Shown one piece after another: positions 2,235 to 5,854 of a stretch of DNA of 5,934 nucleotides (position 1 is its first letter; each line of letters begins with the position of its first letter). Below the pieces are notes generated by a model. It was given only the letters and a program-made list of their open reading frames with translations. It ran no database searches and was not told where the DNA came from. Location of the stretch: positions 1-5,934 of the forward strand of contig CAMLCX010000330.1 of assembly GCA_946478635.1 (NCBI GenBank). Direction: 5' to 3'. The position numbers were made by a program, and so were the translations under genes. The stretch comes from an uncultured Pseudomonadota bacterium. GTDB lineage: Bacteria; Desulfobacterota_B; Binatia; UBA9968.

Positions 2235-2489
2235 ATGGCCGAAGAAACCGCAGAACAAAAATTGGCTCGCTTGGAAGCCGAGAACCGCGCGCTCAAAGAA
2301 CAAATCGATAAGCGGAAACCCGGCGAGCTCCGGCTCAAGATCAGCGAAAAGGGGGGTCTGTCGGTGTACGGTTTAGGAAGGTTTCCGGTGACGCTCTATA
2401 AAGAGCAATGGTCGCGGTTGCTGAACCACGTCGATGAGATCAAACAGTTCCTTCAGGAGCATGATCAAGAACTCAAGGCAAAGCAGTAG
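2235..2489 (+). CDS. Small conserved-looking protein of unknown function with N-terminal coiled coil
   Basis: The protein has 84 residues. I choose the ATG at 2235 because GGAGGGG (2226-2232) lies just before it; the in-frame ATG at 2223 has no ribosome site and overlaps that purine run. Residues 4-28 form a short leucine-zipper-like helix with leucines at 10, 13 and 20 and a typical AENRALKEQ stretch. Residues 31-56 form a compact block with alternating hydrophobics: LKISEKGG, then LSVYGLGRFPVTLY, rich in glycine and aromatics. Residues 57-84 are a charged amphipathic helix beginning KEQWSRLL. There is no signal peptide or membrane segment, so it should be cytoplasmic and probably self-associates through the zipper. 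The central block looks like a conserved core and I have an impression of similar small proteins in cyanobacteria and other phyla, but I cannot verify that and know no function. It lies 239 nt upstream of the large coiled-coil gene on the same strand; co-transcription is possible but unproven. Confidence 0.85.
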   Translation: MAEETAEQKLARLEAENRALKEQIDKRKPGELRLKISEKGGLSVYGLGRFPVTLYKEQWSRLLNHVDEIKQFLQEHDQELKAKQ

Positions 2490-2527: not shown

Positions 2528-2687
2528 TGGAACAATGGCCGACGCGCCAAATTATTGTTTGATTGATGGTTTGGTGCCTTGTAAGGGCATCCCTGGTCAT
2601 CGTTGATAATTATGAGCAATTTCGAGTAAAAGACTCCTCGGACAATTGTTTTGGCAAAATCTTTCGGGAGGCGTAAAATACCCAAAT

Positions 2688-2726
2688 CCCGGGGGATCAA
2701 GCAATTGCTCCCCGGGGTGCAACCCC
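2688..2726 (+). promoter_or_regulatory. Overlapping mutually exclusive hairpins before the ATG of the large coiled-coil gene
   Basis: CCCGGGG (2688-2694) is perfectly complementary to CCCCGGG (2710-2716), a 7-bp all-GC stem. Its 15-nt loop contains most of the palindrome AGCAATTGCT (2700-2709). The 3' arm overlaps GGGGT (2714-2718), which can instead pair with ACCCC (2722-2726) around a 3-nt loop. The two stems cannot coexist. The second ends two bases before the ATG at 2729, and GGGGTG is the only purine-rich stretch near that ATG, so pairing could affect ribosome access. The pairing is seen directly; regulation is inference. If translation instead begins at TTG 2651, these bases are coding. 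Confidence 0.35.
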
Positions 2727-2728
2727 AT

Positions 2729-5700
2729 ATGCGGACAAGAGAAAAAGTTATTGTTGTGCTGGTCGGCGCCACTTTGATTTTGGGTGGGCTGATTTTTTTC
2801 GCCTTTCAGGGTAACGAGCTCGAAGCCAACTATTTCCGTTGGTTGCTCGCCAACAAGCTTAGCTACGGTTGGTCCTCGCCGGCGCGCTTTATCGCCGATG
2901 AATTGCCTTCGGGCACTCTATTCTACGGCGGTCTTTCGCTTTTCGCCGTGGTCATGACCATTGTCATCCTCAAAATGGTTCGTGACGGAGAAATCCAAGC
3001 GCTCCGACAGCGGTTGCTGGACCTGCGTTCGGAGAAATCCGAAGCGGAGAAGTTACTCGAGGAGCAAGTCTGGAAAGGCAAGACCGATAGGCAGGCGAAG
3101 GATTCGGTCATGCGCGACCTCGAAGCCAGCATCGAGAAAATTGAGCTGCTGCTCAGCGACTTGAACGAAAAAGAGCGAGAGCTAAAAGCGCGAGACGCCG
3201 AACTGATGGCGGTTAAAACCAGCGCAGCCGCAGATACCGGTGCGCCGCTCCCGCCGGCGGCCGTTCGACAATTGCGCGAGGAGCTCGACAAACAAATCAA
3301 GCTCGTGCAGACCAAGGACGCAGCGCTCCGAGATGCCGAGCAACGCCTAGGCGCGAAGACTCGGCAGTGGGAAGCCCAACTGCGTGAAAAAGACAGTCAT
3401 CTGAAGGAGAAAGAAAACCAACTAGGGGGCATTCGCGCCGAGGCCGCCGAGCTTACCGATCGTGTCCATCAGCTGGAAAGCGCCAAAAAACGCGCCGAGG
3501 ATCGTCTTGAGGAGGAGCTGCGGCAAAAGAAGGAAGTGCTCGAAGCCGACGCGCTGGCCATAAAAGCGGAGGAAGAGCGCTTAGGTGAAAGGATCAGAAC
3601 GCTCGAAAACCAGCTGAGCGACAAGGACAAGACGCTGCGCCAGCGCGACTCGGAAATGGCGGGGATCCGCCGCCAGCTGGGCGAACTTCAGGCCACCAAG
3701 TCACAAGTCGAAAGCGACATCGAGAAAGTATCGACGAAGGCGCAACGAGACCTGCAAGAAAAAGATCGCGCCTTGCGGGATCTTGAGCAGCGGCTCGGGG
3801 TCCGAGTGCAGGAACTGCAGGAGGATCTCGGCAAGAAAGATCTGTTGCTGCAAGTCCGCGACGACGAGCTCAAGTCTCTGCAATCCGAAGTCAAAGCGGT
3901 GTCGCTGCGACTGAGCGAGATGGCCGCGGCAAAAGCGCGTGCGGAAGAGGCGCTGCATGACGATCTCTTGAAGCAGAAGCAGCAACATGAGGCCGGCAAA
4001 GTCGCCTATCTCCAACTCGAGGACCGTTTCAATACCGAACTTAAACTCCTGACCACGCAACTCGGCGAGCGGGAGATTTTTCTCAAACGCCGCGACGACG
4101 AAGTTCAGGCGCTCGAACAGCAGGTGCATAACGCCTTGCAGCGGCTGGAAGGAGCCACTGCGGCCAAAGCACAGATCGAAAGCTCGCTGCGCGAAGAGCT
4201 CAAGAAAGAACAAACCCGGCTGGAATCCAGCGCGGCGGCCGCCCGCGCGCTGGAGCAACGTTTGAGCAAAGAAGCTGGCGCTTTCAAAAGCCAAGTTACG
4301 AAAGCCGAAGAATCGCGCAAGAGCCAGGAGGAAGAGAACAAAGCACTTAAAGCCCAGGTGGCTTCTCTCGCCGAGCAACTTGCGAAGGTCGGCTCCGCCA
4401 AGGAGCACGCGGCCCAGCTTCTTCAGCAAACGTTGAAAAAGGAGAAGGCCGTTGTTCAGGCAAGCGATTCCGCGGTGCGCGAGATCGAAGAAAGCTTCAA
4501 GACGAAGATTCAGGCTCTCGAAGAGCAACTGGCAGTCAAACAAAACCTGGTCGGCACTCGCGACAGCGAACTCTCGACACTCAAGTCGGAAATCTCGTCG
4601 GTCAGTCAAAAACTGACCGATTTGACGGGAGCGAAAGAACGGGCCGAAAGTTTATTGGAAGAGGCGGTTAACGAACGAACCGCGCTTTTGCATGCCAAAG
4701 ATGCCGGCATCAAAAAGTTGGAAGAAGACCTCAGCGGCCAAATTTGGAATCTGGAAAGCCGGTTAAGGGAGAGGGAAGAGCTTCTCCATCGCCGGGAATC
4801 GGAGCTGGAGGGATTCAAGAAACAACTGGCTGAGGTGGCCAAATCGAAAGAGCAAGTCGCGCAAACGCTGCACGAAGATCTCAGGGAAAAAGGCGAGATG
4901 CTCGGCGCCAAGGAAGCGGCGCTGGGCGCGCTGGAAGAACGTTTCAATGCGGCCATGCGCGATCTTGAAAGCGAACTGAGCCACAAGCAGGAGCTATTGG
5001 ATGCCCGGGATAACGAGCTCAAGGCGCTGTCGTCCAAACTGACGGGCCAAGCCGCTCAATTGGCGCAGTTGGAACTATCGAAAGACGGCGTCGCGCGGAG
5101 GCTCGAAGACGAACTCCGACGCGCGACCGAATCGATACAGGCCAAAGAATCTGCGATGCAATCTCTCGAGGACCGTTTGAGCGGAAAGCTCGCATCGCTG
5201 GAAGGGCAGATTGCGCAGAAACAAGAACTCTTGGAGGCGCGCGATTCGGAACTCGACGCGCTCATGTCCAAGGTGAATGAGCTCACGCAAAACCTCAACG
5301 AAGCGGCAGCCGAGCGCGAGCGCGCTGAGCGTCTGCTTCAGGAAGATGTGCGTGAGAAAACCGCGCAACTCCAGTCCAGGGAATCCTCTCTCGACGAATT
5401 AGAGGAGCGCTTCGGCGGAAGAATCGATTCCCTGGAGAGCCAGATCGAAGATAAACAGAAGCTTTTGGAGGCGAGTGGTGCGGAGCTCGGCGAGCTTCGC
5501 GCGCAGATCAATGCCATGCAAGAGCGATTGATCGAGTCTGAGGCTGCCAGAGCGCAACTCGAAGATTTGCTGCAGCAGGAACGCGACCACCCGGATAAGG
5601 CGTTGTTGGTTATGCCGTCGGCAGACCAGAACGGCGAGGAGCCAGTTAATGGTGACGGTCGGAGAGACACACTTTTGAGCGAGAGAGAAGAGCTGCTCAA

Positions 5701-5854
5701 GGCCCGCGACAAGTTAATTCAGAACTTAATGACGGAGCTCAAGGAAAAAAAGACGCAATTGGCCAGGCAGGAAATCGAAGTCTGGAAGGGCATTGAACGC
5801 CGGGAGGCATGGAAGCATCGCTTGTCGAAGTTCGGAATCCGGCTCAAGGATTAG
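2729..5854 (+). CDS. Large membrane-anchored coiled-coil protein with ten tandem 78-residue repeats, function unknown
   Basis: The protein has 1041 residues from the ATG at 2729. The start is uncertain: the frame is open back to a TAA at 2627, and TTG 2651 would add 26 basic residues, but it lacks a ribosome site. MRTREK is a typical positive, inside-facing N-terminus. Membrane helix 1 spans about residues 7-26 and helix 2 about 63-84, joined by a 36-residue loop predicted to be outside; the remainder should be cytoplasmic. Residues 87-160 are coiled coil, followed by a Pro/Ala linker near 164-179. Ten tandem repeats occupy 190-955, then an acidic/Gly linker (963-979), another short coil, and a basic tail ending WKHRLSKFGIRL. 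No cysteine is present. Most repeats carry an RDxEL-like motif. The repeat section alone would make a rod of roughly 110 nm if fully helical. I recognise no family. Two N-terminal membrane helices plus a long coil resemble the layout of Caulobacter TipN and other scaffolds, so a structural or positioning role is a guess. General hits to SMC or myosin would be compositional. Confidence 0.9.
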   Translation: MRTREKVIVVLVGATLILGGLIFFAFQGNELEANYFRWLLANKLSYGWSSPARFIADELPSGTLFYGGLSLFAVVMTIVILKMVRDGEIQALRQRLLDLRSEKSEAEKLLEEQVWKGKTDRQAKDSVMRDLEASIEKIELLLSDLNEKERELKARDAELMAVKTSAAADTGAPLPPAAVRQLREELDKQIKLVQTKDAALRDAEQRLGAKTRQWEAQLREKDSHLKEKENQLGGIRAEAAELTDRVHQLESAKKRAEDRLEEELRQKKEVLEADALAIKAEEERLGERIRTLENQLSDKDKTLRQRDSEMAGIRRQLGELQATKSQVESDIEKVSTKAQRDLQEKDRALRDLEQRLGVRVQELQEDLGKKDLLLQVRDDELKSLQSEVKAVSLRLSEMAAAKARAEEALHDDLLKQKQQHEAGKVAYLQLEDRFNTELKLLTTQLGEREIFLKRRDDEVQALEQQVHNALQRLEGATAAKAQIESSLREELKKEQTRLESSAAAARALEQRLSKEAGAFKSQVTKAEESRKSQEEENKALKAQVASLAEQLAKVGSAKEHAAQLLQQTLKKEKAVVQASDSAVREIEESFKTKIQALEEQLAVKQNLVGTRDSELSTLKSEISSVSQKLTDLTGAKERAESLLEEAVNERTALLHAKDAGIKKLEEDLSGQIWNLESRLREREELLHRRESELEGFKKQLAEVAKSKEQVAQTLHEDLREKGEMLGAKEAALGALEERFNAAMRDLESELSHKQELLDARDNELKALSSKLTGQAAQLAQLELSKDGVARRLEDELRRATESIQAKESAMQSLEDRLSGKLASLEGQIAQKQELLEARDSELDALMSKVNELTQNLNEAAAERERAERLLQEDVREKTAQLQSRESSLDELEERFGGRIDSLESQIEDKQKLLEASGAELGELRAQINAMQERLIESEAARAQLEDLLQQERDHPDKALLVMPSADQNGEEPVNGDGRRDTLLSEREELLKARDKLIQNLMTELKEKKTQLARQEIEVWKGIERREAWKHRLSKFGIRLKD
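3296..5593 (+). repeat. Ten tandem coding repeats of 234 bp (two of 213 bp) within the coiled-coil gene
   Basis: Aligning the translation on the motif L-x-x-K-[DE] and the downstream RDxEL places ten adjacent units. They start at 3296, 3530, 3743, 3977, 4211, 4445, 4679, 4892, 5126 and 5360; the last ends at 5593. Eight are exactly 78 residues; the units at 3530 and 4679 are 71. Shared positions within a unit are Lys7, Asp/Glu8, Leu14-Glu15, Leu25, Lys/Arg32, Arg39-Asp40, Leu43, Val/Leu50, a Lys near 64, and a Leu near 71. Units at 3296, 4211 and 5360 have lost the Arg-Asp pair. Comparison of the two most alike units (4892 and 5126) shows many synonymous changes, so the duplications look old and are held at protein rather than DNA level. 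A more degenerate copy precedes the array and a half copy (EELLKARDKL) follows the linker. Confidence 0.85.

Follow-up and report, generated by a model that had tools for sequence, protein, structure and literature searches.

A bacterial coiled-coil rod of ten 78-residue units, probably anchored in the membrane, with relatives that differ by whole units

Our question was whether the largest gene of a contig from an uncultured bacterium (CAMLCX010000330.1, assembly GCA_946478635.1) really encodes a rod built from equal coiled-coil units, how such a rod could have grown, and what it could be for. The window is the whole stretch of 5,934 nucleotides that was analyzed. The original prediction, made from the letters of the window, had placed ten in-register units of 78 residues at positions 3296-5593. 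This repeat is confirmed; the span is 2298 nucleotides or 766 residues, which equals 8 x 78 + 2 x 71. In the phase used here, which is arbitrary, the array covers positions 3284-5581 (residues 186-951) and is divided as follows.

3284..3517, + strand, unit 1, 78 residues
3518..3730, + strand, unit 2, 71 residues, one heptad short
3731..3964, + strand, unit 3, 78 residues
3965..4198, + strand, unit 4, 78 residues; the least conserved unit (2.16 bits) and the region of extra units in longer relatives
4199..4432, + strand, unit 5, 78 residues
4433..4666, + strand, unit 6, 78 residues
4667..4879, + strand, unit 7, 71 residues, one heptad short
4880..5113, + strand, unit 8, 78 residues; the second extra-unit region of longer relatives comes after unit 7
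5114..5347, + strand, unit 9, 78 residues
5348..5581, + strand, unit 10, 78 residues by position

Independent chaining of unit matches gave start-to-start steps of 78, 71, 78, 78, 78, 78, 71, 78 and 78 residues. The length of the tenth unit is not set by any following full unit; degenerate matches flank the array, one 73 residues before it and one 77 residues past the start of unit 10. The periodicity was compared with shuffles that hold each residue in its heptad position, and none of 200 shuffles reaches it (z 37.5). The BLOSUM62 self-similarity of residues 186-951 is 1.234 at lag 78, and the shuffle maximum at any lag is -0.040. A wider segment with 300 shuffles gives an agreeing result, with lag 78 the strongest of the lags tested, and five other rods in the same test gave z values of 27 to 75. 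As controls we used ten SMC arms, taken from five genomes within the group; their best z was 1.4, and 2 of 60 shuffles equalled the arm that came closest to a signal. One more control (L129, a partly SMC-like frame of 770 amino acids) beat its 60 shuffles at lag 42 with z 3.5, at a similarity that is still negative (-0.374). A 39-residue sub-repeat was also sought; lag 39 is weak, and lags 32 and 46 are slightly better. At the DNA level the repeat is almost invisible in the rod gene, and the ten units, all compared with each other, share a mean identity of 28% and a maximum of 44% (over 62 residues). The duplications are therefore old.

A profile of the unit was built from 994 distinct 78-residue units (effective number 128). 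Leu, Ile, Val, Met or Phe make up more than 40% of the residues at unit positions 1, 7, 8, 15, 18, 22, 26, 29, 33, 39, 40, 47, 50, 54, 57, 61, 64, 74 and 75, and K36, R43 and K68 lie on the core line. The best-fitting hydrophobic period is 3.545, which is 78/22, or about 22 core layers per 78 residues. We read the unit as ten heptads interrupted by two stutters of four residues (22 to 26 and 75 to 1), i.e. eight heptads and two hendecads. The 71-residue form fits best if one heptad is taken out of this unit at about positions 50-60. The recurring motifs that had been noted in the window appear in the profile: Arg-Asp-x-Glu-Leu as R43 (86%), D44 (58%), E46 (80%) and L47 (56%), Lys-Asp/Glu as K11 (39%) and D12/E12 (67%), and Leu-Glu as L18 (66%) and E19 (72%). 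R43, at 2.66 bits, is the most informative position of the unit. A weak trimer-like motif, R60-L61-x-x-L64-E65, was also seen and set aside.

Relatives were gathered in three protein searches. The rod as query gave 142 matches (best 120 listed) from 7990 scored candidates, its first 170 residues gave 116, and the soluble relatives described below gave 80 from 7995 scored candidates; distant relatives may lie outside the scored candidates. From the 220 proteins collected, we counted units in the 153 (window rod included) that carry a pair of predicted transmembrane helices at the N-terminus together with the conserved C-terminal end (C-end), dropping 67 that are partial, soluble or divergent. 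Homologues varying by whole units, the check that had been named beforehand, were found: members have 4 (3 proteins), 6 (28), 8 (3), 9 (12), 10 (91), 11 (7), 13 (1), 14 (1) or 15 (7) units. The unit-to-unit steps are exactly 78 or 71 residues in 1233 of 1278 cases and never 64 or 85, and shuffled versions of 60 proteins contained no chained unit. The steps of the window rod are kept to the residue in 85 of the 91 ten-unit members. Since steps stay identical while aligned relatives (n=51) are 42-88% identical to the window rod, length is conserved as the sequence drifts.

The short steps also keep their places. All 125 examined proteins of more than 900 amino acids (a count that excludes P0078 and P0079) have a 71-step at unit 2, and in 121 a second one lies nearer the C side, at unit 7 (98 proteins), 6 (13), 9 (8) or 8 (2); none was found in the other four. 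Most six-unit members alternate between 78 and 71, with 74 in some. In a tree built from both ends alone (101 of the 153 members, midpoint root, support values not considered, direction of change not settled), unit number largely tracks the clades. The exceptions are the nine-unit P0120, which stands apart from the other nine-unit proteins, and the ungrouped four-unit P0148 and P0192.

Growth by tandem duplication with the spacing preserved, as had been proposed, is well supported by the constant steps, the whole-unit relatives and the existence of highly similar neighbours. The role of ruler or docking scaffold that the original prediction attached to it stays a matter of interpretation. Units 1-3, 6, 7 and 10 of the window map in order onto most of the tested relatives with 9, 11, 13, 14 and 15 units, the assignments between them being often weak or tied, and the extra units of the longer relatives fall after unit 3 and after unit 7. 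Some neighbouring units in the 14- and 15-unit proteins examined are 71-81% identical, compared with 24-44% in the window. Over 62 residues, the values are 76, 76 and 71% in P0074 and 81, 77, 74 and 65% in P0086, and the best neighbours in the 13-, 11- and 9-unit examples reach 58, 55 and 52%. We read the highly similar neighbours as tandem duplications of single units that took place after those which gave rise to the units of the window, and evolution appears to have lengthened or shortened the rod in whole-unit steps. The repeat, its core pattern, the whole-unit changes in copy number, the similarity of neighbours in long members, the conservation of the ends and, among the genomes searched, the confinement to one group were all computed directly.

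What the rod could do depends on the parts around the array. These run from a basic tail through two predicted transmembrane helices, a conserved coil, a Pro/Ala hinge, the ten units and a variable linker to the C-end.

2729..5854, + strand, rod gene, 1041 amino acids from the ATG (open reading frame list and homologue starts)
2729..2746, + strand, N-terminal tail MRTREK, residues 1-6; nearly invariant, net charge +2, 4.01 bits
2747..2809, + strand, predicted transmembrane helix 1, residues 7-27; hydropathy peak window from residue 7, AlphaFold2 (AF2) helix 3-25
2810..2920, + strand, inter-helix loop, residues 28-64 (37 residues); net charge -1
2921..2980, + strand, predicted transmembrane helix 2, residues 65-84; hydropathy peak window from residue 63, AF2 helix from 65
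2981..3223, + strand, juxtamembrane coil, residues 85-165; conserved, mean 3.29 bits
3224..3283, + strand, Pro/Ala hinge, residues 166-185; variable, 2.04 bits (166-184), predicted local distance difference test score (pLDDT) below 50 at 165-172
5582..5668, + strand, flexible linker, residues 952-980; the lowest conservation of the segments scored, 1.98 bits
5669..5851, + strand, C-terminal end, residues 981-1041 (61 residues); 3.81 bits

A mechanical start at TTG 2651 would give 1067 amino acids. The true start is probably ATG 2729, because MRTREK is the exact N-terminus in 91 of the 153 members and the others are similar. The juxtamembrane coil holds a degenerate unit, with a low-scoring chain start near residue 113. 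Apart from the six-residue N-terminal tail, the C-end is the best-conserved segment of the rod by alignment bits. Its last 23 residues have a net charge of +5, Trp 1028 is invariant and Trp 1019 nearly so, and we presume it to be a docking tip. We also considered the C-end as an amphipathic membrane helix and dropped this idea, its hydrophobic moment being just moderately high; its best segment is number 77 of 1024 in the window rod, and the rank in five relatives lies between 25 of 708 and 111 of 1110. AF2 on a single chain, which has no bearing on a dimer, gave long helices with a mean pLDDT of 69, falling below 50 in the linker at residues 954-971 and 973-977.

From these features we give a probability of about 0.5 to the reading that the rod is a coiled-coil spacer or tether anchored in the inner membrane, its length set by the number of equal units and its far end a docking tip. 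The rod of the window is probably membrane-anchored, through two N-terminal transmembrane helices that would hold it in the inner membrane. The tail has a charge of +2 and the loop of -1, and the loop is therefore probably periplasmic by the positive-inside rule, with both termini inside. The remainder, probably a parallel dimer, would extend into the cytoplasm as a ten-unit rod. The rise of a coiled coil is 0.1485 nm per residue, and 766 residues would span about 115 nm. A flexible linker would then bear the basic, Trp-containing C-end, which would dock on a partner. Duplication of a unit would keep the coiled-coil core in phase, and the short form drops one whole heptad; the rod could therefore change by about 11.6 nm with anchor and tip undisturbed. 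The spacer or tether reading is suggested because length stays fixed as the sequence drifts, the ends are conserved, the linkers are loose and the units preserve phase. The orientation of the rod, its state as a dimer or other oligomer, its partner and its spacer role are what we infer from this.

Several observations weigh against the spacer or tether. D44 and E46 are strongly conserved off the core line, which would be superfluous in a pure spacer. The neighbour genes of the rod form no clear functional unit. AF2 breaks the helix at about residues 359-390 and 575-614, at low confidence. The excess of ten-unit members may partly stem from a search that began with a ten-unit protein, and unit number differs among clades, so that no single length is required.

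A bolder reading makes the rod an evolvable molecular ruler. One bacterial lineage would tune the distance from membrane to target in quanta of about 11.6 nm, through gain or loss of single units, and would reuse one brick for anchored rods (4-15 units), soluble rods (1-5 units) and a one-unit carrier of the tip. We put this forward tentatively. Coiled-coil spacers are described as holding their length as the sequence drifts, but a change of length without loss of register is seldom visible in them. The relatives of 4 to 15 units form a natural series in which the ends are conserved and the duplications can be counted, and selection on reach thereby becomes a testable question. A 78-residue unit that stays in phase and can drop one heptad may also suit designed rods as a brick.

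The strict repeat allows three other explanations, all of which we think less likely. Periodic docking, with one binding site per unit and about ten copies of a partner at steps of 11.6 nm, draws some plausibility from the conservation of D44 and E46 away from the core line; E35 is conserved off it as well across the 994 distinct units, and the unit also occurs in soluble proteins. We nonetheless regard such a scaffold as doubtful. The window units average just 28% identity, several of the conserved residues (R43, K36 and K68) lie on or beside the core line where coil packing would explain them, the neighbours seen suggest no repeated ligand, and no clear support was found for one ligand per unit. 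A self-assembling, membrane-linked filament or mesh, with rods packed side by side at a stagger set by the unit as in myosin rods or intermediate filaments, would also require a strict long repeat. The profile of intermediate filament proteins is matched weakly, short of its curated cut-off, keratin 14 is matched at E 1e-4, and the best parallel attraction between charges (offset 74 or 82) exceeds the mean of the shuffle maxima in three of seven members (the window rod, P0005 and P0074). However, no attraction, parallel or antiparallel, rises above the best of 200 heptad-preserving shuffles in any of the seven. The antiparallel attractions fall short of the shuffle mean, most charges that meet near offset 78 are of like sign, and whole-unit differences in length among relatives are hard to reconcile with one lattice. 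The null result of the charge scan therefore makes a filament less likely, and we consider it as doubtful as the docking scaffold.

Least probable, in our judgment quite unlikely, is that length is not selected at all. Insertions and deletions other than heptads or units would break the coil, and copy number would drift by unequal crossing-over. The 71- and 78-residue forms are indeed one heptad apart, highly similar neighbours exist and unit number varies among clades. Against drift, 91 of the 153 members, spread over several branches, retain ten units, and in-phase changes of a single heptad are unseen except for the 71-steps, which sit mostly at fixed places.

We compared the spacer or tether with known rods. 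The nearest kind are Scy and FilP of Actinobacteria, long coiled-coil rods with repeats beyond the heptad, of more than 1000 residues in Scy, whose diversity is attributed to duplication and expansion of coiled-coil repeats (PMC9858780). The window rod shares with them a long regular bacterial coiled coil. Scy and FilP start with a DivIVA-like domain, in place of which the window rod has two predicted transmembrane helices, and Scy is almost wholly hendecads whereas the window rod is mostly heptad with a period of 3.545 and a 78-residue unit. Its relatives, unlike Scy and FilP, step by whole units. A repeat of 51 residues is said to have been described by Walshaw in 2010. No DivIVA-like domain was found in a Pfam-A scan of the 1067-residue reading, which lists just HAUS1 and Filament, both below their cut-offs (E<=0.001).

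In the excerpted text of PMC5082667, the spacer coiled coils Omp-alpha and giantin are membrane-linked rods whose length is conserved while the sequence diverges. The window rod resembles them in keeping its length (identical steps in 85 of 91 ten-unit members) and differs in that those excerpts describe no internal unit of equal length; Omp-alpha spans the periplasm, whereas there is no known gap for the window rod to span. PodJ is described in an excerpt of PMC10127582.

The window rod shares with crescentin and intermediate filaments a long rod with stutters; it differs in its predicted membrane anchor and in showing no stagger signal beyond shuffles. The polar scaffold TipN has a pair of transmembrane helices at its N-terminus and then a long coiled coil in the cytoplasm, and is not known to have a regular repeat. 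The window rod may be like such a scaffold in its two predicted hydrophobic segments, a possible likeness of architecture in which the membrane side is predicted. What we find distinctive is the predicted membrane anchor combined with a 78-residue unit of mostly heptads and with relatives whose lengths change by whole units.

Database searches gave no family identity. The rod protein reaches no Pfam or NCBIfam family at its cut-off and has no PHROG match at E<=0.01. A Filament identity (20.4 bits against a Pfam cut-off of 40) was rejected as coil-driven, an SMC/Rad50 identity because just the coil part matches (44.8 bits against an NCBIfam cut-off of 567.35), and a phage tape-measure protein on the missing PHROG match. 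Since the SMC score is below its cut-off, we read the 'chromosome segregation ATPase' labels of some matches as coil-driven too. Among solved structures, a single-sequence search found nothing at E<=0.01, and a profile search found keratin 14, TRAF3 and a design alone (E 1e-4 to 5e-4), which we read as generic coil similarity. A description of the family was not found among the top-ranked literature matches listed, a search that was not exhaustive, and the words 'coiled' and 'cytoskelet' gave no match in the Binatota genome paper (PMC8262859).

The named sources of the matches listed are metagenome-assembled genomes of Candidatus Binatia/Binatota or 'Deltaproteobacteria', plus one protein each labelled Terriglobales and Limnocylindrales, both of which we assume to be misbinned. 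In whole genomes, whose class was taken as Binatia from the protein source labels, the C-end is confined, among the genomes searched, to one family-level group. It occurs there in nine genomes, out of 25 in the family, 35 in its order and 148 in its class. Matches labelled A1 occur in 14 of the 148 class genomes, nine with unit profile and C-end and the other five with weak coil matches. The full rod profile was found in 1 of 395 genomes of a phylum sample. GTDB 220, with one genome per species, gave two loci, titled 'Syntrophobacter sp. SbD2' and 'Deltaproteobacteria bacterium', and plasmid records gave no match.

The neighbourhood of the rod gene we read as inherited gene order and not as a functional unit. 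A small gene (window positions 2235-2489) lies near the rod in six of nine loci (the window, L001, L035, L037, L039 and L040). Beyond it, in all but L037, where the contig ends first, come an alcohol dehydrogenase and an amidohydrolase, 82-93% identical in L001, L035, L039 and L040. In the window this conserved metabolic pair beside the rod is as follows.

907-1992, - strand, amidohydrolase gene
3-815, - strand, zinc alcohol dehydrogenase gene

The small gene was rejected as a partner of the rod. It is commoner than the rod (35 of 148 class genomes), 28 of its 35 holders show no C-end of the rod, and neither genome G506 nor genome G511 yielded the small gene. Immediately 5' of the rod start, window positions 2686-2728 form a G+C-rich inverted repeat. 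The fold energy of RNA upstream of the start is not significant (z -1.15), and an Rfam scan gave no family at gathering score.

The unit and the C-end also occur outside anchored rods, as in genome G511. Locus proteins were read from stop to stop, and some include residues upstream of the true start.

L042, 907-2082, + strand, soluble unit protein, G511
L043, 492-1820, + strand, soluble unit protein, G511
L103, 3113-3958, - strand, soluble unit protein, G511
L104, 4489-5106, - strand, soluble unit protein, G511
L105, 3-548, - strand, short protein with the rod C-end
L122, frame of 202 amino acids, short protein with the rod C-end
L041, 4534-6231, + strand, transmembrane relative with units and without the C-end

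The four soluble proteins, with 78-residue units, all end in DPFE. Two frames of 412 and 457 amino acids hold four chained units each, one of 289 holds two and one of 212 holds one, and the last two differ by 77 residues. In G511 two short frames, of 182 and 202 residues, also bear the C-end, separate from any anchored rod; the former has one unit and no predicted transmembrane helix. Metagenomes contain similar soluble proteins, among them P0135 and P0138 with five units each, and genome G505, which holds L041, also has a full rod. Two further coiled-coil proteins (L110, 1064-2497, + strand, and L106, 1-798, + strand) have weak unit matches and mutually similar-looking C-terminal parts unlike that of the rod. 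Genes with a bacterial SH3 domain adjoin L042 and L043, and homologous small genes lie near L042 and L104, with 35% identity.
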